A stretch of DNA of 29,872 bases from a virus. Shown here piece after piece: positions 3,276-24,466 of this stretch. Both the position numbers and the translations under genes were made by a program. The notes under the pieces are model-generated. The model did not search any database. It saw only the letters and a list, made by a program, of their open reading frames with translations, and was not told the DNA's origin. Where the stretch lies: positions 1 through 29,872 of IMG/VR virus record IMGVR_UViG_3300027142_000039. One strand, written 5' to 3'. Every line of letters begins with the position of its first letter. Positions within the stretch are counted from its first letter, which is position 1.

Positions 3276-4214
3276 ATGCCGCTGCTTTCCCGCCGCCAGC
3301 TGCTGCTGGCCGAAATCGAGACTACCTATGGCGTCGACCCTACGCCAACTGTTGGCGCCAACGCCATCCTGGTGCGCAATATCGAGGTGACGCCCCTCGA
3401 GGCTGACACCGTAAGTCGTGAGCTGATCCGCCCTTACCTCGGCCAATCCGAGCAGCTGCTAGCCCAAACCCGTGTGCTGGTGAACTTTGAAGTGGAGCTT
3501 GCAGGTTCTGGCACTGCTGGCACTGCCCCGGCATATGGCCCGCTGCTGAAAGCATGTTCGTTCACTGAGACCGTATCGGCTAGCACGAGCGTCACCTATA
3601 CGCCGAACAGCAACGCTTCGCCCGGCTCGGTCACGATCTACTTCAACAACGATGGCGTGCTGCACAAGGCCACCGGCTGCCGCGGCACCTTCTCGCTGAA
3701 CTGCACCGTTGGTGAGATCCCCACCATTGCATTCGAGTTCACGGGCATTTACAACGCCCCGACCGCATCGGCTATCAGCAGCCCCACCTACGCCAATCAA
3801 GCTGATCCGGTGGTGTTCAAGCAGGGCAACACCACTGGCTTCGAGGTGTTCAGCTATGCCGGTTGCCTTCAGAGCTTCACGATGGAACTGGCCAATGAGC
3901 TGGTCTATCGCGAGCTGGTGGGCTGCACCAAGGAAGTGATCATCACCAACCGCGCCCCTGCTGGTGAGGTGATGATTGAGGCCGTCTCGGTCAGCGCTCA
4001 CAACTTCTTTAACGATGCCACCGGCAGCAGCACTGGAAACCTGACCTTCCAGCACGGCCAGACCGCTGGCAATATCGTGACCTTCACCGCTGATCAGATC
4101 GATCTGGGCAACCCGTCCTATAGCGATGAAGACGGCATCCAGATGCTGACCCTGCCATACATTGCCACCCCGACCGATTCGGGCAATGATGAGATGGAGA
4201 TTGTCTTCACCTGA
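3276..4214 (+). CDS. Major tail tube protein
   Basis: 312 residues, typical in size for a siphovirus tail tube protein with an extra domain. It begins with SRRQLLLAEIETTYGVDPTP, the common opening of this family (a helix and 'E..YGvdptP'), then IEVTPLEADTVSRELIRPYLG. The body is beta-rich and closes on residues near IVTFTADQIDLGNPSYSDEDGI, which resembles the last strands of tube proteins. It polymerises in hexameric rings around the tape measure. It is followed by the G/GT chaperones and tape measure, the conserved tail order. A hairpin sits just before its start. Confidence 0.85.
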   Translation: MPLLSRRQLLLAEIETTYGVDPTPTVGANAILVRNIEVTPLEADTVSRELIRPYLGQSEQLLAQTRVLVNFEVELAGSGTAGTAPAYGPLLKACSFTETVSASTSVTYTPNSNASPGSVTIYFNNDGVLHKATGCRGTFSLNCTVGEIPTIAFEFTGIYNAPTASAISSPTYANQADPVVFKQGNTTGFEVFSYAGCLQSFTMELANELVYRELVGCTKEVIITNRAPAGEVMIEAVSVSAHNFFNDATGSSTGNLTFQHGQTAGNIVTFTADQIDLGNPSYSDEDGIQMLTLPYIATPTDSGNDEMEIVFT

Positions 4215-4219
4215 TCCGC

Positions 4220-4600
4220 GTGGCATTTGTCCTTAAGCAGTCAGACTCCTATACCTGGCCGGTGAGCATCAAGCTCCCGGCCAATGGGGGGAAGCGAGAG
4301 CGGCAGACCTTTGATGCTGAGTTCAAGCGGCTGGCACAAAGCCGCATCAACGAGATTCAGCGCGAGGTGCAGCTGCGCGTTAAGGCCAACGAAAAGGGTG
4401 AAGACACTGGCGAGGGCGTCAGTGATCAGAGCATTGCCGATGAGATCCTGGTTGGCTGGGATGGAATCATCGATGGCGATGGTGAGCCCGTGCCCTTCAG
4501 CAATGCGGTAAAGGCGCAACTGCTGGATGTGCCAATGATGGCCGGCGCTTTGGTTGCCGCCTACTTTGAGTCGCTGGTGGAGCAGAAGAGAAAAAACTGA
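4220..4600 (+). CDS. Tail assembly chaperone, G-type (zero-frame product)
   Basis: 126 residues from a GTG start 5 nt after the tail tube stop. The N-terminal strand MAFVLKQSDSYTWPVSIKLP and the long charged helix (QTFDAEFKRLAQSRINEIQREVQ) fit tail chaperones of the lambda gpG type. These bind the tape measure and tail tube subunits during assembly and are absent from the finished tail. The last codons are AGA AAA AAC TGA, which contain the slippery heptamer for a -1 shift (4591-4597). Identity rests on position, frameshift and size, as these proteins diverge strongly. Confidence 0.85.
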   Translation: MAFVLKQSDSYTWPVSIKLPANGGKRERQTFDAEFKRLAQSRINEIQREVQLRVKANEKGEDTGEGVSDQSIADEILVGWDGIIDGDGEPVPFSNAVKAQLLDVPMMAGALVAAYFESLVEQKRKN

Positions 4601-4629
4601 TCGGGGCCGCTGAGCATTGGCTAGGCGGC
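4591..4629 (+). promoter_or_regulatory. Programmed -1 ribosomal frameshift signal (slippery site plus hairpin)
   Basis: A AAA AAC at 4591-4597 is phased exactly as X XXY YYZ to the zero frame and stands directly before the TGA. After an 8-nt spacer a hairpin forms: GCCGC (4606-4610) with GCGGC (4625-4629), a T-G wobble, one mismatch, then AGC (4613-4615) with GCT (4620-4622) and loop ATTG. The frame entered is open until 4920. These three elements make a canonical G/GT recoding site. Confidence 0.88.
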
Positions 4630-4920
4630 ATGGAGGTTGACGACACAGCAAAGGATGCAGCTGTGTTCGGCATCGAACCACCACCGAGCAAGGCGGCCGT
4701 CAACTTTGAGGTGGAGCCAGAAGCATGGGCAGCCGTGCGTGTGTTCCTAAAGGTGCAGACGCAATGGCGTACTGATTCCGGCACCATGATCGGCCTCGAC
4801 TATGGCGCCGTGCGGTGGGTGTTTGATCTACTGCAGATCGTTGATCCAGCCGAGGTTCTAGGTGATCTGCAGATCATCGAGGCTACAGTGGTTGCAGCAG
4901 TCAACAAGCGCAAGAAATAG
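4597..4920 (+). CDS. T domain of the GT tail assembly chaperone (read by -1 frameshift)
   Basis: After the slip, decoding continues at CTG 4597 (LIGAAEHWLGGMEVDDTA and on) to the stop at 4918-4920. This gives a G-T fusion of 233 residues encoded over 4220-4920. The 107-residue extension has AAEHW near the junction, then TMIGLDYGAVRWVFDLLQI, a pattern seen in the downstream T partner (DUF1799-like) of tail chaperones. An ATG at 4630 could give a free 96-residue protein, but it lies within the predicted hairpin region, has no clear ribosome site, and the residues before it (4597-4629) look conserved. GT is thought to recruit tail tube subunits to the tape measure. Confidence 0.82.
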   Translation: MIGAAEHWLGGMEVDDTAKDAAVFGIEPPPSKAAVNFEVEPEAWAAVRVFLKVQTQWRTDSGTMIGLDYGAVRWVFDLLQIVDPAEVLGDLQIIEATVVAAVNKRKK

Positions 4921-4922
4921 CC

Positions 4923-6845
4923 ATGGCGCTGGACATGACAACTGCCCTGACGATCAGGGCCAAGGTTGACGGTCTGGCCCAGATTGATGGTTTGACTCGT
5001 TCGCTTGACAAGGCAAACAATCAGGCCGGCGGCTTGAGTGGTGCGTTCAACAAGCTTGGCGGCATGGCCAAAAATGCCGGCATTGCCATCGCCGGTCTTG
5101 GTGCTGCTGCAGTTGGCGGCCTTGCAGTGCTTGGCAAGAATGCGATTGATGCAGCAGACAACCTCAACGATCTGAGCCAACGCACTGGTGTTGGCGTTGA
5201 AGCGCTAAGCAAGTTTGGAGCCGCAGCGGAAGATAGTGGCAGCAGCTTGGATGAAGTTGCCAAAGCCATGGGCAAGCTCTCCAAAGGGATTGTTGACCCA
5301 ACTTCTAAAGCCAACGAAGCGCTCAGATCTATTGGGATTAGTTCGACGGACGCAAGCGGCAAGATTCGCAGCGTTGACGCGGTGATGCTCGACATTGCCG
5401 ATAAGTTCAGCAAGCTGCCAGATGGTGCGCAAAAGACTGCATTGGCGATGGAGATCTTCGGCAAATCAGGCGCCAACCTGATTCCGATGTTGAACGGTGG
5501 CCGCGAAGCCATGAGCCAATACTCAGCCACTATCACCACTGAGATGGCGCAGGCTGCTGACAAGTTCAACGATGCAATCAATGCAATCATGCGTGAACTG
5601 GCAGGGCCATTTAATCAAGCCATCACGGCTGCTTTGCCTTACATCACGCAGATGGCGCAGCAGCTTGGTGCAGCATTGCCTGGCGCAATCGCAGCCTTGG
5701 TTCCTGTGCTGACAGGCTTCCTTGGCACACTGGCTCAGATCGGCCAGTGGTTCGCCACGCTGACGCCGCAACAGCAGGGGTTCATTGCTGGCGCAGCTGC
5801 GCTCACGGTCGCCTTTGTTGCACTGGCGCCTGCAATCACGGCGATCATCACGGTGTTCACTGCACTTGGCCCGCTTATTGCCGGTATCGCGGCAGCGATT
5901 GTCGGAATCCCTGCTGTGATTGCCGGCTGGGCTGGTGCGATCGCCCCCCTTGTCGCTGGATTGACTGGTCTTGGCCAGGTTCTTATTGCGGTATTTACTG
6001 GCCCAGTTGGATGGGTGACACTTGCTGTTGCTGCTGGCATAGCCATCTATGCCTTCCGCGATAAAATTATCGACGCTTTCAAAGGCATTGGCATAGTCTT
6101 TGTCGAAATAGCTGGCTTATATAAGAAAGTCTTTATTGAGCCAGTCTTAAAGTTGGGCCAAGTTGTTATTGATTTTTATCTCAAGCCTTGGCTTAAGATA
6201 TTTGACCTTATCAAAAAGCCCTTTGAAATGGGCCTTAATTTCTTCAAAGATAAGTTCGTCGGACCGATCCAAAGGATTGCGTCTTCTATGGTTGACTCGC
6301 TAAAGAGTGCCTTTAAGCGAGTCACTGACTTCATCATTGCACCATTCAAGGCTGCTGCTGATGTTGTCAAGGGCGTGTTCAACACTCTTATTGGCATTGT
6401 CGAGAAAGGCATCAACTCGGCAATCGCTGGGATTAACAAGCTAATTCAAGCGGCCAACAAGGTGCCCGGAGTTAGCATCCCAACAATTAGCAATGTGACG
6501 TTGCCACGCTTCGCAGAGGGTGGCGTCGTTAATGGCCCTACTTTGGCAATGGTTGGCGAGGGAGGAGAGCCTGAATATATTGTGCCGCAGTCTAAGGCTG
6601 GCAAATTTGCGGCCAACTGGATGGCTGGTATGCGTGGCCCTGCTGCCATCCCGCGCTTTGCCGAGGGTGGCGTGGTGGTGCCGAGCAATGCGCAGATCAA
6701 TGTTCAAACTGGTCCCGTGACACAAATGGATGGGACCAATTACGTCACTGTGTCTGATATGGAAAAAGCCATGCAATCAATGGCCGTGTCAATTTATAGC
6801 AGTGTCAGATCTTCCGGTGGCCGTAGATACGCAGGAGTGCGATGA
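4923..6845 (+). CDS. Tail tape measure protein
   Basis: 640 residues; by position and features the tape measure, whose length sets tail length. The N-terminal 60 residues are helical with IDGLTRSLDKANNQAGGLSG, then a glycine-rich hydrophobic stretch (IAIAGLGAAAVGGLAVLG). Residues about 75-200 hold ALSKFGAAAEDSG and ALAMEIFGKSGANLIPML, hallmarks of this family. Long hydrophobic membrane-like segments follow (about 280-375), likely for DNA passage into the cell. The C terminus carries two copies of PRFAEGGVV, each before a short domain; the first leads into GPTLAMVGEGGEPEYIVPQS, a known tape-measure tail motif. At 640 residues it implies a rather short tail (inference). It overlaps the next gene by ATGA. 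Confidence 0.92.
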   Translation: MALDMTTALTIRAKVDGLAQIDGLTRSLDKANNQAGGLSGAFNKLGGMAKNAGIAIAGLGAAAVGGLAVLGKNAIDAADNLNDLSQRTGVGVEALSKFGAAAEDSGSSLDEVAKAMGKLSKGIVDPTSKANEALRSIGISSTDASGKIRSVDAVMLDIADKFSKLPDGAQKTALAMEIFGKSGANLIPMLNGGREAMSQYSATITTEMAQAADKFNDAINAIMRELAGPFNQAITAALPYITQMAQQLGAALPGAIAALVPVLTGFLGTLAQIGQWFATLTPQQQGFIAGAAALTVAFVALAPAITAIITVFTALGPLIAGIAAAIVGIPAVIAGWAGAIAPLVAGLTGLGQVLIAVFTGPVGWVTLAVAAGIAIYAFRDKIIDAFKGIGIVFVEIAGLYKKVFIEPVLKLGQVVIDFYLKPWLKIFDLIKKPFEMGLNFFKDKFVGPIQRIASSMVDSLKSAFKRVTDFIIAPFKAAADVVKGVFNTLIGIVEKGINSAIAGINKLIQAANKVPGVSIPTISNVTLPRFAEGGVVNGPTLAMVGEGGEPEYIVPQSKAGKFAANWMAGMRGPAAIPRFAEGGVVVPSNAQINVQTGPVTQMDGTNYVTVSDMEKAMQSMAVSIYSSVRSSGGRRYAGVR

Positions 6846-10082: not shown

Positions 10083-10594
10083 CGACATTCCCTGAGCTGT
10101 GCCCGAATAGTATCGAGTTTGATCTGGGCCAAGCCAATATCAGCGAGGAGGCCACTTACGCTGGGCCTATTAGGTTTCGTCATTCGGCGCGAATCAACAA
10201 TCAAATACTCAGGCTGAGGTATGAGTATCTCAATCAAGCCGAAATAGCGCAACTGCGCACGCATTTCTACGAAAACCAATCATCAATAAATAGGTTCGAC
10301 TTACCCATCGCCATATGGGGCGGCCTGAGTGTTGTGCCATCTACAGCTCTGTGCAATTATCTGGCACCTTTTGAAGAGGAGCAATTAGGCACTCGTTACA
10401 ATGTCACGATAGAACTGAGAATTGTTGATAGTATCATCAATCTGTATATCTTGCAGTGTGGTTCGACGGCTGCCAGAAATGTTGAAGCCGTAACGACATT
10501 CGCATTTGTCGGCTATGCGCCTTTCATCTTGAATGGCGGAAATGCAAGCGTTGCGGCTACATTGGTCCTAAATGGCGGCGGTGCCAGCTTGTGA
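10079..10594 (+). CDS. Small tail protein, tandem member 2
   Basis: 171 residues, ATGA-overlapping with the preceding gene. The core (INNQILRLRYEYLNQAEIAQ, then THFYENQSSINRFDLPIAIWGG) lines up with the core of the 9714 protein, followed by a final beta strand (YNVTIELRIVDS). It then adds about 45 residues with a repeated 'LNGG' element (FILNGGNASVAATLVLNGGGAS), likely a linker or trimer tip. The pair looks like an old gene duplication. It is linked to the tail fibre gene by a 4-nt overlap, supporting a fibre-adaptor role (inference). Confidence 0.66.
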   Translation: MTTFPELCPNSIEFDLGQANISEEATYAGPIRFRHSARINNQILRLRYEYLNQAEIAQLRTHFYENQSSINRFDLPIAIWGGLSVVPSTALCNYLAPFEEEQLGTRYNVTIELRIVDSIINLYILQCGSTAARNVEAVTTFAFVGYAPFILNGGNASVAATLVLNGGGASL

Positions 10595-12270
10595 CGACCC
10601 CAACCACAATTCAAGTAAAGCTGCAGATTCGGGCTGATACGGCTGCTAACTGGGCAGCCGTAAACCCGGTACTGCTCGCCAACGAGCTGGGACTAGAGTC
10701 GGACACCAAGAAATTCAAAGTCGGCAATGGCTCCAGTGCATGGAACAGCCTTGCCCACTTCCCGTCGATTGTTTCAGGTGGCACGGTCCTCGGCAACCTA
10801 GAAATCGGCACCACTGGCACGCTGACGTTTGAAGGCAGCACTGCCGATGGCTTTGAAACCACACTTGGCGTGGTCGATCCGACTGCAGACCGCACGATTC
10901 TGCTGCCGAACCAGAGCGGAACTGTGGTTGTCGGCGGAAACGCCAGCATCACAAACGCAGATATTGCCACCAATGCTGAAATTGCTGTTGGCAAGCTTGC
11001 TGATGGCGCTGCCCGCCAATTGCTGCAGACTGATGCCGCTGGCACGGGCGTTGAATGGACAGATAATGTCGACATTCCCGGCACGCTCGATGTAACCGGA
11101 GCTGCAACATTTGACGCTGCTGTAACTGTTGCAGGTGACCTTACTGTTAACGGTACGACTACAACGATCAGCACTCAAAACCTGCTGGTCGAAGATAAAA
11201 ACATCATCATCGGGGACGTTGCTACTCCGACAGACACAACAGCCGACGGCGGTGGCATCACGCTTAAAGGCGCCACCGATAAAACAATCAACTGGGTCGA
11301 TTCCACGGATGCATGGACTAGTAGCGAGCGATTCAGTGTGCCGCTTGGTAGCGCATCTGCACCATCGCTGACATTTACTGGTGATCCCAATACCGGCATT
11401 TATTCACCTGGCGCAGATCAAGTAGCCATCAGCACTAGCTCCTCTGAGCGCATTCGCATCGGAGCAAATGGTGAGATCGGATTGGGTGGTGCTAACTACG
11501 GCACCAACGGGCAAGTTCTGACGAGTTCTGGAACTGGCGCTGCGCCGACTTGGACAACTCCATCGGCAGGCAACACTGACAAGATTGAGGAAGGCAACAC
11601 ATCCGCCGAAGTGATTGATACCGGCAGCGATGGCCGGTTTGTGGTGACGACGGAAGGGACGGAGAGGCTTCGCATCGCCAGCACTGGAGCCCTCGGTCTT
11701 TCCGGCGCTAACTATGGTTCATCCGGTCAAGTTCTAACGTCGCAAGGTTCTGGTGCAGCTCCGCAGTGGGCGACGCCTTCTGGAGGTTTAACATTACTTT
11801 CAACAATCACCGCAAGTGCAGTAAATACAGTTGATTTTACAAGCGGATTCAGCTCCTCGTACATTGACTATTTTATAAGCATCGACAACTTTTCGCAGAA
11901 TAGCGGAGAGCTGCACTTCTTCGTTTCTACTGATGGTGGTTCTAGCTACGTTAACACCGGTTATCGCAATGCTGGGGCGGTTATTTCCCAAAGCGCAATA
12001 TTTTCACAAGTCAATGGACAACTGAAGATCACAAGCTGGACTGGCGTAAACAGTGAAGGAATCTTCAGAGTCTCTCTTTATGGTGCTTATGCTACAACAA
12101 GAAAGTTAGTAGTTTCGGATTCTTCATTCAATCTTAGCGGATCAATAGTGTATGGCAGGTACACGACATCTGTTGACACAACATCGGTTGTAAATGCTTT
12201 TAGGATAAAGGCCGAAGGTACTGGTAATATTACCGGCACCTTTAGGCTTTTTGGCGTCACCAAAATCTAA
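10591..12270 (+). CDS. Tail fibre protein
   Basis: 559 residues from a GTG start overlapping the upstream stop. Residues 1-55 (NWAAVNPVLLANELGLESDT, KVGNGSSAWNSLAHF) are an Mtd-type N-terminal module shared with the 2166 gene. Residues 60-420 are a repetitive fibrous shaft: GNASITNADIATNAEIAVG, FTGDPNTGIYSPGADQVAIS, and two copies of a GANYGxxGQVLTS...GAAPxWxTPS unit. Residues from about 400 form a beta-rich head ending ITGTFRLFGVTKI, probably the receptor-binding tip. The tip region is AT-richer than the shaft, which suggests exchange by recombination. The gene is followed by its probable chaperone. Confidence 0.85.
   Translation: MTTPTTIQVKLQIRADTAANWAAVNPVLLANELGLESDTKKFKVGNGSSAWNSLAHFPSIVSGGTVLGNLEIGTTGTLTFEGSTADGFETTLGVVDPTADRTILLPNQSGTVVVGGNASITNADIATNAEIAVGKLADGAARQLLQTDAAGTGVEWTDNVDIPGTLDVTGAATFDAAVTVAGDLTVNGTTTTISTQNLLVEDKNIIIGDVATPTDTTADGGGITLKGATDKTINWVDSTDAWTSSERFSVPLGSASAPSLTFTGDPNTGIYSPGADQVAISTSSSERIRIGANGEIGLGGANYGTNGQVLTSSGTGAAPTWTTPSAGNTDKIEEGNTSAEVIDTGSDGRFVVTTEGTERLRIASTGALGLSGANYGSSGQVLTSQGSGAAPQWATPSGGLTLLSTITASAVNTVDFTSGFSSSYIDYFISIDNFSQNSGELHFFVSTDGGSSYVNTGYRNAGAVISQSAIFSQVNGQLKITSWTGVNSEGIFRVSLYGAYATTRKLVVSDSSFNLSGSIVYGRYTTSVDTTSVVNAFRIKAEGTGNITGTFRLFGVTKI
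11485..11786 (+). repeat. Two-copy fibre-shaft repeat within the tail fibre gene
   Basis: Copy 1 (about 11485-11571) encodes GANYGTNGQVLTSSGTGAAP then TWTTPSAG; copy 2 (about 11701-11786) encodes GANYGSSGQVLTSQGSGAAP then QWATPSGG. Each is preceded by a related ERLRIAS/ERIRIGANG strand. Such units are common in phage fibre shafts and favour recombination between fibres. Confidence 0.75.
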
Positions 12271-22211: not shown

Positions 22212-23528
22212 ATGCGCCAGTACCTCGAACAATCCGTCTACGACGCCGCTATTGAGCGGCTGGATTTCGTGTTTGCCAACTTCAAGCGCGTCTACGTCTC
22301 CTTCTCTGGCGGCAAGGACAGCGGCGTTCTCCTTAATCTCGTTTGCGACTACATACGAGACAGGCGGCTGTCGGTCAAGGTTGGCGTCCAGATCATGGAC
22401 AACGAAGCCAACTACAACCACAGCGAGGAGTTCATGCATCGCATCCTCGAAGCCAATCGAGACATCCTCGACATCTATTGGTGCTGCCTGCCCATCACGC
22501 TGCCCTGCACCGTCAGCTCTTACGAGATCGATTGGCAGTGCTGGGGCGAGGCTGACCGCCATCGCTGGATTCGCCCCATGCCGCAGCAGGATTACATCGT
22601 CAACCTGCAGAACCATCCATTTGGTGGCCTGTTCATTGAGAACATGGACTACGCCACCTTCTGGGACATGTTCGCTGAGTGGTATAGCCAGGGTGAGCCG
22701 TGCGCAAACCTGATCGGTATCCGCACTGTTGAATCACTCAACCGTTTCAGGGCAATCCTGAACCAAGACAAGGAGACGATGCTTGGCCGGATGTGGACCA
22801 AGAAGAACACAGCCCATACCTACAACTGCTATCCGATCTATGACTGGCGGACAGAGGACATCTGGACCGCTAACGCAAAATTCGGCTGGGACTACAACAA
22901 GCTCTATGACGTGTTCTACATGGCTGGTATCCCCATCAAGAAGATGCGAGTTGCCTCGCCGTTTATGTCAGAGTCCAAATCCAGCCTCGCCATGTATCGG
23001 GTAATCGACCCACAGATCTGGGCGAGGCTTTGCGCCAGAGTCGGCGGTGCCAACTTCATGGCCACCTACGGCAAGCAGCTTGATTACAAATCCTTCAGGT
23101 TGCCCGCTGGCCATACGTGGAAATCCTTTGTCAAGTTTCTGCTCGCTACCCTCCCCGATCAATCAAGCGCAAATTTTAAGCAGCGCTTCATCCAATCAAT
23201 CCGCTACTGGGGCAGGGTGGGGCGCGGTCTTCCTGAATCGATCATTGAAGCTCTTGGCCGTATTGGCATCCGCTTCTACATCAATGGCACCACGCGTCAC
23301 GGCGGCAACAACCTGCGCCGTGTTGTGATCAAGGTACCACCCGATCATCTAGATGATCTGCCATGTCACAACAGCATGGTCACATCGTGGAAGCGCTTTG
23401 CCATCACGGTTCTCAAGAACGACCACACCTGCAAGTACCTCGGCTTGGCGCCAACGCAAGAACAGCAGCGCCGCCAGAAATCAATCCAACGCAAGTACAG
23501 CCAAGTCCTCAACCGCTCCGCCAAATGA
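22212..23528 (+). CDS. PAPS reductase-like PP-loop protein (IbrA/DUF3440-like)
   Basis: 438 residues. The PP-loop SFSGGKDSGVLLNL (residues 30-43) binds ATP or PAPS pyrophosphate. MDNEANYNHSEEFMHRIL, the DIYWCCLPITLPCTVSSYE region and YNCYPIYDWRTEDIWTANAK are typical of IbrA/DUF3440 proteins rather than of sulphate-assimilating CysH, whose C-terminal ECGIH-type cysteine is not seen. The last 70 residues hold VTSWKRFAITVLKNDHTCKY, then LGLAPTQEQQRRQ, a motif shared with the 24730 protein. It overlaps the cupin-ParB gene by ATGA. Such enzymes may adenylate or thiolate a nucleic acid or small molecule (inference); sulphate assimilation is unlikely as no partners are present. Confidence 0.85.
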   Translation: MRQYLEQSVYDAAIERLDFVFANFKRVYVSFSGGKDSGVLLNLVCDYIRDRRLSVKVGVQIMDNEANYNHSEEFMHRILEANRDILDIYWCCLPITLPCTVSSYEIDWQCWGEADRHRWIRPMPQQDYIVNLQNHPFGGLFIENMDYATFWDMFAEWYSQGEPCANLIGIRTVESLNRFRAILNQDKETMLGRMWTKKNTAHTYNCYPIYDWRTEDIWTANAKFGWDYNKLYDVFYMAGIPIKKMRVASPFMSESKSSLAMYRVIDPQIWARLCARVGGANFMATYGKQLDYKSFRLPAGHTWKSFVKFLLATLPDQSSANFKQRFIQSIRYWGRVGRGLPESIIEALGRIGIRFYINGTTRHGGNNLRRVVIKVPPDHLDDLPCHNSMVTSWKRFAITVLKNDHTCKYLGLAPTQEQQRRQKSIQRKYSQVLNRSAK

Positions 23529-24466
23529 AGATCCTGAACGCCACCCAACTACCTGACGACCGCGTTGTGCAATGCCCACGCGGTGGCTTCACCAGCCATC
23601 GCCTTGTCGTTGAAACTGACGGCATGGGCTACAGCATGACCAAAACCGTTATCCACCCTGGCAAGCCCCACCGCTGGCACTACCAGCACCACCTCGAAAC
23701 CTGCTACTGCGTCAGCGGCAAAGGGCTGCTGATCAACGAAGCAACGCAAGAAATCATCGCGGTTGGCCCTGATGTGACCTACGTGCTTGACAAGCACGAT
23801 GCTCACACGTTTGAAGCCTTAGAACCCACAACACTGATCTGTGTTTTCAATCCACCTCTAAAAGGCGACGAACTCCACGATGAGAACGACTCTTACCCTT
23901 GGCGATCCCCGGTCTACTCTGTCCGCAGTATTCCTATCGAGAAAGTTACCGCCAACGATTACAACCCCAACTCTGTGGCGCCGCCTGAAATGGCACTACT
24001 CGAAACATCAATTTGGGAAGATGGCTACACACAGCCTGTCGTTGTTGTGCATGACGCCGAACGCGACTTATATGTGGTCGTTGACGGTTTCCACCGATAC
24101 CTGACGCTGAAGAACAGCCAGCGCATCCGCGAACGTGAAGGCGGCCGCTTGCCCGTGGTTGTGCTCCGCAAAGAGCTGCACGACCGGATGGCATCAACCA
24201 TCCGTCACAACCGCGCTCGTGGTTCGCACAACATCGAGCTGATGAGCGTGATCGTTGCCGAGCTGATCGAAATGGGCAAAGGCGACGCATGGATCTGCAA
24301 TCACATCGGCATGAGCCCTGATGAGCTGCTGCGCCTTAAGCAGGTGACCGGCCTTGCATCCCTGTTCCTTGGTAAAGATTTCAGCAAGGCATGGGACGTT
24401 GAGCAAATCGACAACGTGACGGAGGATCTCGAGCGTGAAGCTGAAGAGGATCTGGTTACCAATTGA
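23525..24466 (+). CDS. Ectoine-synthase-like cupin fused to ParB/IbrB-like domain
   Basis: 313 residues from ATG 23525 (ATGA overlap). Residues 1-125 match ectoine synthase EctC along their length: TDGMGYSMTKTVIHPGK, HYQHHLETCYCVSGKG, TYVLDKHDAHTFEA, LICVFNPPLKGDELHDEN. Glu58, Tyr86 and His94 line up with the iron ligands reported for EctC (Glu57, Tyr85, His93). Residues 128-313 are ParB/IbrB-like: VRSIPIEKVTANDYNPN, a YVVVDGFHRYLTLKN nucleotide-binding loop, RMASTIRHNRARGSHNIE and a helical HTH-like end (WICNHIGMSPDELLRLKQVT). No ectA or ectB is near, so osmolyte synthesis is unlikely; the cupin may act on a base, nucleotide or small ligand. This fusion is the most unusual protein here. Confidence 0.85.
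   Translation: MKILNATQLPDDRVVQCPRGGFTSHRLVVETDGMGYSMTKTVIHPGKPHRWHYQHHLETCYCVSGKGLLINEATQEIIAVGPDVTYVLDKHDAHTFEALEPTTLICVFNPPLKGDELHDENDSYPWRSPVYSVRSIPIEKVTANDYNPNSVAPPEMALLETSIWEDGYTQPVVVVHDAERDLYVVVDGFHRYLTLKNSQRIREREGGRLPVVVLRKELHDRMASTIRHNRARGSHNIELMSVIVAELIEMGKGDAWICNHIGMSPDELLRLKQVTGLASLFLGKDFSKAWDVEQIDNVTEDLEREAEEDLVTN

Follow-up and report, generated by a model that had tools for sequence, protein, structure and literature searches.

The window analysed here, the whole 29,872-nt stretch of DNA taken from virus record IMGVR_UViG_3300027142_000039, carries an overlapping pair of open reading frames, G and T, between the genes for the tail tube and the tape measure protein. When region 3276-6845 was compared by blastn with annotated phages, only S-CBS1 (two records) and S-LBS1 matched, and on this ground the host is probably a Synechococcus-like, aquatic bacterium. 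The features of the locus are as follows.

3276..4214, + strand: tail tube protein gene, upstream neighbour (PF18906 Phage_tube_2, E 1.7e-22)
4220..4600, + strand: G-type tail assembly chaperone, 126 aa, GTG start (PF08748 Phage_TAC_4, phrog_569)
4579..4582, + strand: GGAG, Shine-Dalgarno-like candidate stimulator 8 nt before the heptamer (weak, tentative)
4591..4597, + strand: slippery heptamer A_AAA_AAC, in the frame of ORF 4220-4600
4591..4920, + strand: -1 frame region with T-type DUF1799 extension (PF08809, E 3.5e-12; phrog_680, E 8.3e-25)
4598..4600, + strand: zero-frame stop TGA touching the heptamer (read from the sequence; TGA in 29 and TAA in 24 of the 53 distinct rows of the codon-usage comparison below)
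4606..4629, + strand: possible stimulatory hairpin (predicted fold)
4630..4632, + strand: in-frame ATG, candidate start of a separate gene (absent in 28 of 79 relatives among the best 80 of 328)
4923..6845, + strand: tape measure protein gene, downstream neighbour (phrog_3981, E 9.8e-68; PF10145, E 2.3e-13)

The G part falls within a family of tail assembly chaperones. Its ORF matches Phage_TAC_4 (PF08748) over the cut-off (E 1.6e-5) as well as phrog_569 (E 4.1e-20), and the predicted G fold (mean pLDDT 79.8) finds its best match among the viral predicted structures of BFVD in an entry without a protein name (E 5.7e-7), with additional matches to Serratia phage Scapp proteins named as tape measure chaperones (E 1.3e-3 and 3.7e-3). 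Sequence and fold searches of the PDB returned nothing useful for the G part or the T part, and NCBIfam held no model matching the fusion. The PHROG families matched by the chaperone parts (569, 680 and 17368) carry the label 'tail length tape measure protein', which is likely to propagate in annotation. In S-LBS1 the G chaperone gene (L083:3731-4111) is annotated as the ATPase of a cobalamin/siderophore transporter, and in S-CBS1 the G gene (L082:3982-4305) is annotated from an internal start, 54 bases past the start of the match.

The G ORF ends AGA AAA AAC and is then closed by TGA. The first-pass annotation of this DNA had described an A_AAA_AAC heptamer in the correct phase directly before the stop, followed by an 8-nt spacer, and a new frame open to position 4920 that carries the T-type domain, and all of these elements were confirmed: the heptamer occupies 4591-4597 and the TGA 4598-4600 in the G frame, the spacer corresponds to 4598-4605, and the -1 frame runs open from the slip for 109 codons to the TAG at 4918-4920 and encodes a DUF1799 domain (PF08809, E 3.5e-12). 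The bare 7-mer is present twice in the window, both strands counted, against 1.49 occurrences expected; a motif expected about 1.5 times per such window is unremarkable alone. Among the 14 in-frame XXXYYYZ heptamers in 24 selected ORFs (of 170 listed), only that at 4591-4597 touches a stop, and its -1 opening of 109 codons compares with 67 for the next longest.

A scan of IMG/VR identified 328 relatives, the best 80 of which were kept for comparison. One of these loci (L061) ends before the stop, leaving 79 assessable, and the T frame of another (L028) runs off its contig. Within this best 80 of 328, every one of the 79 assessable relatives shares with the window a G gene whose last bases, immediately 5' of a TGA or TAA, are A_AAA_AAC, and the -1 frame stays open for 109 or 110 codons in the window and its close relatives (L028, off its contig, excepted). 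Comparison of the site in related phages had been proposed at the outset as a check on the frameshift signal; no loss of the heptamer was found in the 79 assessable relatives (best 80 of 328) or in the 12 named phages introduced below (12/12).

Codon usage was examined in the window and 77 of the 80 loci (that is, without L028, L042 and L061), which comprise 53 distinct rows. Codon 125 is AAA in 53 of 53, whereas lysine elsewhere in the G gene is encoded by AAG 337 times and by AAA 70 times; codon 126 is AAC in 53 of 53, whereas asparagine elsewhere in the gene is AAT 97 times and AAC 69 times; and codon 124 ends in A in all 53. Since AAA and AAC are fixed in a gene that elsewhere prefers AAG and AAT, the comparison indicates that the base sequence of the heptamer is kept, and not the protein alone. 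These silent sites bear directly on the proposal that the heptamer has been retained merely because Lys-Asn suits the C-terminus of G. That proposal accords with an alignment of the window and the 12 named phages, in which Asn126 and Trp80 are the only invariant G residues, but the silent sites are fixed too, and many relatives keep the slippery pattern with GGA (Gly), rather than a lysine codon, in the preceding position. We attach next to no probability to it.

The first-pass annotation had further anticipated that the ATG at 4630 would be called by automatic annotation and hide the fusion. The ATG is indeed present, and in GenBank S-CBS1, S-CBS3 and S-LBS1 are each annotated with two ORFs, behind which the predicted fusion is concealed. 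Taken at face value, such records would make T a separate gene, started at ATG4630 or nearby and translationally coupled to the G stop, with no fusion formed; a weak AGG-type sequence just 5' of ATG4630 is in keeping with this, as is a GTG located three codons before the ATG position, in the -1 frame, in 12 of the 28 relatives that lack the ATG (best 80 of 328). However, ATG4630 is missing altogether from these 28 of the 79 assessable relatives (best 80 of 328), and the codons of 4600-4629 that precede it are constrained at the amino-acid level in the -1 frame. The latter was assessed on the 78 rows used for codon usage, from which six with 110 codons were dropped to leave 72 (47 distinct): uncorrected pN/pS of 4600-4629 was 0.127 in the -1 frame versus 1.63 and 0.81 in the other frames. 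These substitution patterns place the stretch before ATG4630 under constraint at the level of the protein read in the -1 frame. The predicted T model places a helix at T residues 2-9, which are encoded upstream of ATG4630 (mean pLDDT of residues 1-10, 89), and the profile phrog_17368 crosses the junction, matching the joined protein over residues 100-232 (E 2.7e-9). A separate T gene would also give no reason for the fixed silent sites of the heptamer. Because the -1 frame is selected before ATG4630 and the ATG is lost in 28 of 79 relatives, a fusion is favoured over a separate start, which we consider very unlikely; the -1 frame appears to be translated through the junction, without a conserved start of its own.

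The site recurs well beyond the close relatives. Twelve named phages were chosen among the listed matches of two protein searches and represent eight host genera (Synechococcus, Rhodobacter, Rhodovulum, Aeromonas, Escherichia, Pseudomonas, Vibrio and Cronobacter). In each of the 12 the stop of G is immediately preceded by A_AAA_AAC or G_GGA_AAC, and their -1 frames stay open for 103 to 122 codons; their T parts share 23-56% identity with the DUF1799 part of the window, as measured by alignment and not by a Pfam scan of each. Viral loci close to phage HK639, itself included, have a stop-adjacent A_AAA_AAC in 80 of 80 cases (60 distinct sequences). At 40 loci in bacterial genomes the heptamer is R_RRA_AAC in 39 and A_AAA_AAG in one, adjoining the stop in 36 and lying 3 to 27 nt before it in the remaining four. 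Profile searches with PF08809 in 3, 398 and 369 genomes, partly the same genomes, gave 40 loci, 39 of them assessable; nine matching places without a locus were left out, L249 has no upstream ORF on its contig, and L246 was counted although it falls below the Pfam cut-off. In this second survey 37 of 39 loci carry R_RRA_AAC and two A_AAA_AAG, with 29 heptamers adjacent to the stop and ten located 3 to 105 nt before it. With the six shared loci counted once, the two surveys combine to 73 bacterial DUF1799 loci, some of them near-identical (such as L243 and L244), of which 71 have R_RRA_AAC, two have the AAG form and 61 are stop-adjacent. The A_AAA_AAG heptamers belong to two distinct DUF1799 loci, L127 (= L215) and L237, where 15 and 18 nt separate them from the stop; most AAC sites adjoin the stop, but two AAG loci are too small a sample for judging a link. 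The lambda G family PF06894, intended as a contrast for stop distance, had no member in the 369 genomes.

The recurrence of G_GGA_AAC at the homologous place is also relevant to the notion that the A6 run makes RNA polymerase slip, and not the ribosome. Six A residues at 4591-4596 are indeed fixed in the close relatives (best 80 of 328), but six is short for polymerase slippage, and the homologous sites are often G_GGA_AAC, which contains no run longer than three and fits tandem tRNA re-pairing. In view of this recurrence, an origin at the level of transcription seems extremely improbable.

The locus is thus read as a tail assembly chaperone pair of the lambda G/GT type, and very probably is one, its fusion being predicted from comparative data to arise by tandem -1 slippage. 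The majority of ribosomes would terminate at TGA4600 and produce the 126-aa G-type chaperone. A minority, with tRNA-Lys on AAA and tRNA-Asn on AAC, would slip one base back on A_AAA_AAC, re-pairing from AAA-AAC to AAA-AAA, and would then read CTG and the following codons (4597-4917) as far as TAG4920, yielding a fusion of 233 aa that carries DUF1799 at its C-terminal end. If the two parts act as in lambda, G would hold the tape measure protein and T would bring the tail-tube subunits. We infer the occurrence of slippage and its low efficiency, perhaps a few per cent, as well as the role of the adjacent stop and the protein contacts.

With regard to stimulatory elements, a hairpin had been assigned to 4606-4629, and in the predicted fold it can form, with a stem of 4606-4611/4624-4629, inner pairs 4613-4615/4620-4622 and a loop at 4616-4619. 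In the window it has a folding energy of -16.9 kcal/mol (z -2.27), and three of 200 dinucleotide shuffles equal or exceed that stability. We compared 80 rows, namely the window, 78 loci and S-CBS1, of which 46 are distinct, and all 46 are predicted to fold into a hairpin after the spacer, eight of them in a shifted register. The silent sites of the three 5'-arm codons (4606-4614) are nearly invariant, and 52 of 53 rows have at position 4626 a C or a T, either of which can pair with G4609. Slid versions of the hairpin pair in 18 to 46% of cells, below the actual structure, but better pairing than slid versions is to be expected because the structure was taken from these very sequences. Measured against shuffled partners the pairing is no better (85.0% of cells versus 84.8%), none of the 10 pairs shows compensatory changes in the 46 distinct rows, and RNAalifold recovered no consensus helix at the hairpin position. 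In a codon-preserving control the window hairpin gave P 0.20, a fifth of the synonymous randomisations being as stable, and over the 46 rows the mean z was -1.07, with 13 of 46 below -1.64. Its stability is largely explained by the codons. As a proven stimulator the hairpin was rejected, given the lack of compensatory changes and of an RNAalifold helix and the non-significant codon-preserving control in the window; over the related rows the codon-preserving signal is weak, and stimulation by the hairpin is plausible. As regards the tentative GGAG element at 4579-4582, its GAG codon 121 is free of silent changes in all 53 distinct rows, and in 17 of 78 rows a T replaces the G that precedes this codon.

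Frameshifted G/GT pairs of the lambda type are a kind long known and familiar in tailed phages. The lambda heptamer is G_GGA_AAG, and the lambda protein families differ from those of the window. The likeness lies in a tape measure chaperone pair with a -1 frameshift, here predicted, near the 3' end of G; unlike in lambda, the T part of the window is DUF1799 and the stop touches the heptamer. In lambda itself low-level -1 frameshifting near the G 3' end gives the two products at 30:1 (PMC5009743, excerpt), and measurements on two genes of an HK97-like chaperone cluster gave frameshifting of 6 and 7% (PMC3711429, excerpt). Sites resembling that of the window have been predicted elsewhere. In the excerpted account of Burkholderia phage KL1 gp18/gp19 (PMC3483164), the G gene has a predicted GGGAAAC immediately followed by its TGA, and a stem-loop may form farther downstream, as in the window, but KL1 is from another phage group and has an extra gene between the pair and the tape measure gene. 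Likewise, according to an excerpt on Acinetobacter phage Loki gp12/gp13 (PMC5313236), AAAAAAC adjoins the stop of the first chaperone gene and a -1 fusion is predicted, so that in Loki as in the window the fusion is known by prediction only; Loki differs in its host and in having another gene between the chaperones and the tape measure gene. Genes 49/50 of Rhodobacter phage RcapMu share with the window a heptamer before TGA and a DUF1799 ORF in the -1 frame, beside which record JN190960 flags a 'potential -1 frameshift' at the same place, although RcapMu is a Mu-like phage with G_GGA_AAC instead of A_AAA_AAC and a G identity of 28%. The Synechococcus phages S-CBS1, S-CBS3 and S-LBS1 have A_AAA_AAC and TGA at the corresponding position before the tape measure gene; their records list the pair as two genes. 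Neither 'frameshift' nor 'chaperone' came up when the S-LBS1 paper (PMC6157547) was searched for these terms, in the portion of text covered, and in the open-access literature we found in print neither a frameshift site for this cyanophage group nor a DUF1799-wide rule. The fusion prediction corrects the annotation of this aquatic Synechococcus phage group, in which the fusion is hidden behind separate gene calls, and DUF1799 likely gains a job as the T part of a tail chaperone.

The adjacency of heptamer and stop (61 of 73 bacterial loci) may be mechanistic, or may merely reflect that G needs no further extension. Under the first reading, DUF1799-type chaperones from cyanophages to proteobacterial phages would use a distinct, stop-coupled R_RRA_AAC signal in which the stop itself contributes to the slip: if termination is slow, the two tRNAs occupying the E and P sites would have time to shift, and release-factor activity rather than the hairpin would set the G:GT ratio. 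We regard this stronger proposal as doubtful. Stop adjacency is not universal, since in PaMx73 the heptamer is situated 43 codons before the stop (PMC4378225, excerpt). The preference for AAC next to a stop, set against the AAG site that is the stronger in E. coli, raises the question of termination competing with slippage.

Two further observations concern the remainder of the window. ORF 23363-24466 encodes a cupin domain resembling that of ectoine synthase (PF06339, E 6.6e-36) and, after it, a ParB_N-like stretch below the Pfam cut-off, and adjoins a DUF3440/PAPS-reductase gene (22212-23528), which looks an unusual combination for a phage; because the listed ORF overlaps its neighbour, its true start is probably later. 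In addition, 2166-2804 and 10591-12270 encode fibre-like proteins in different gene blocks that have an Mtd_N domain (PF18454) in common, with 50% identity over 44 residues, and in S-CBS1 a gene annotated mtd lies upstream of the tail genes.
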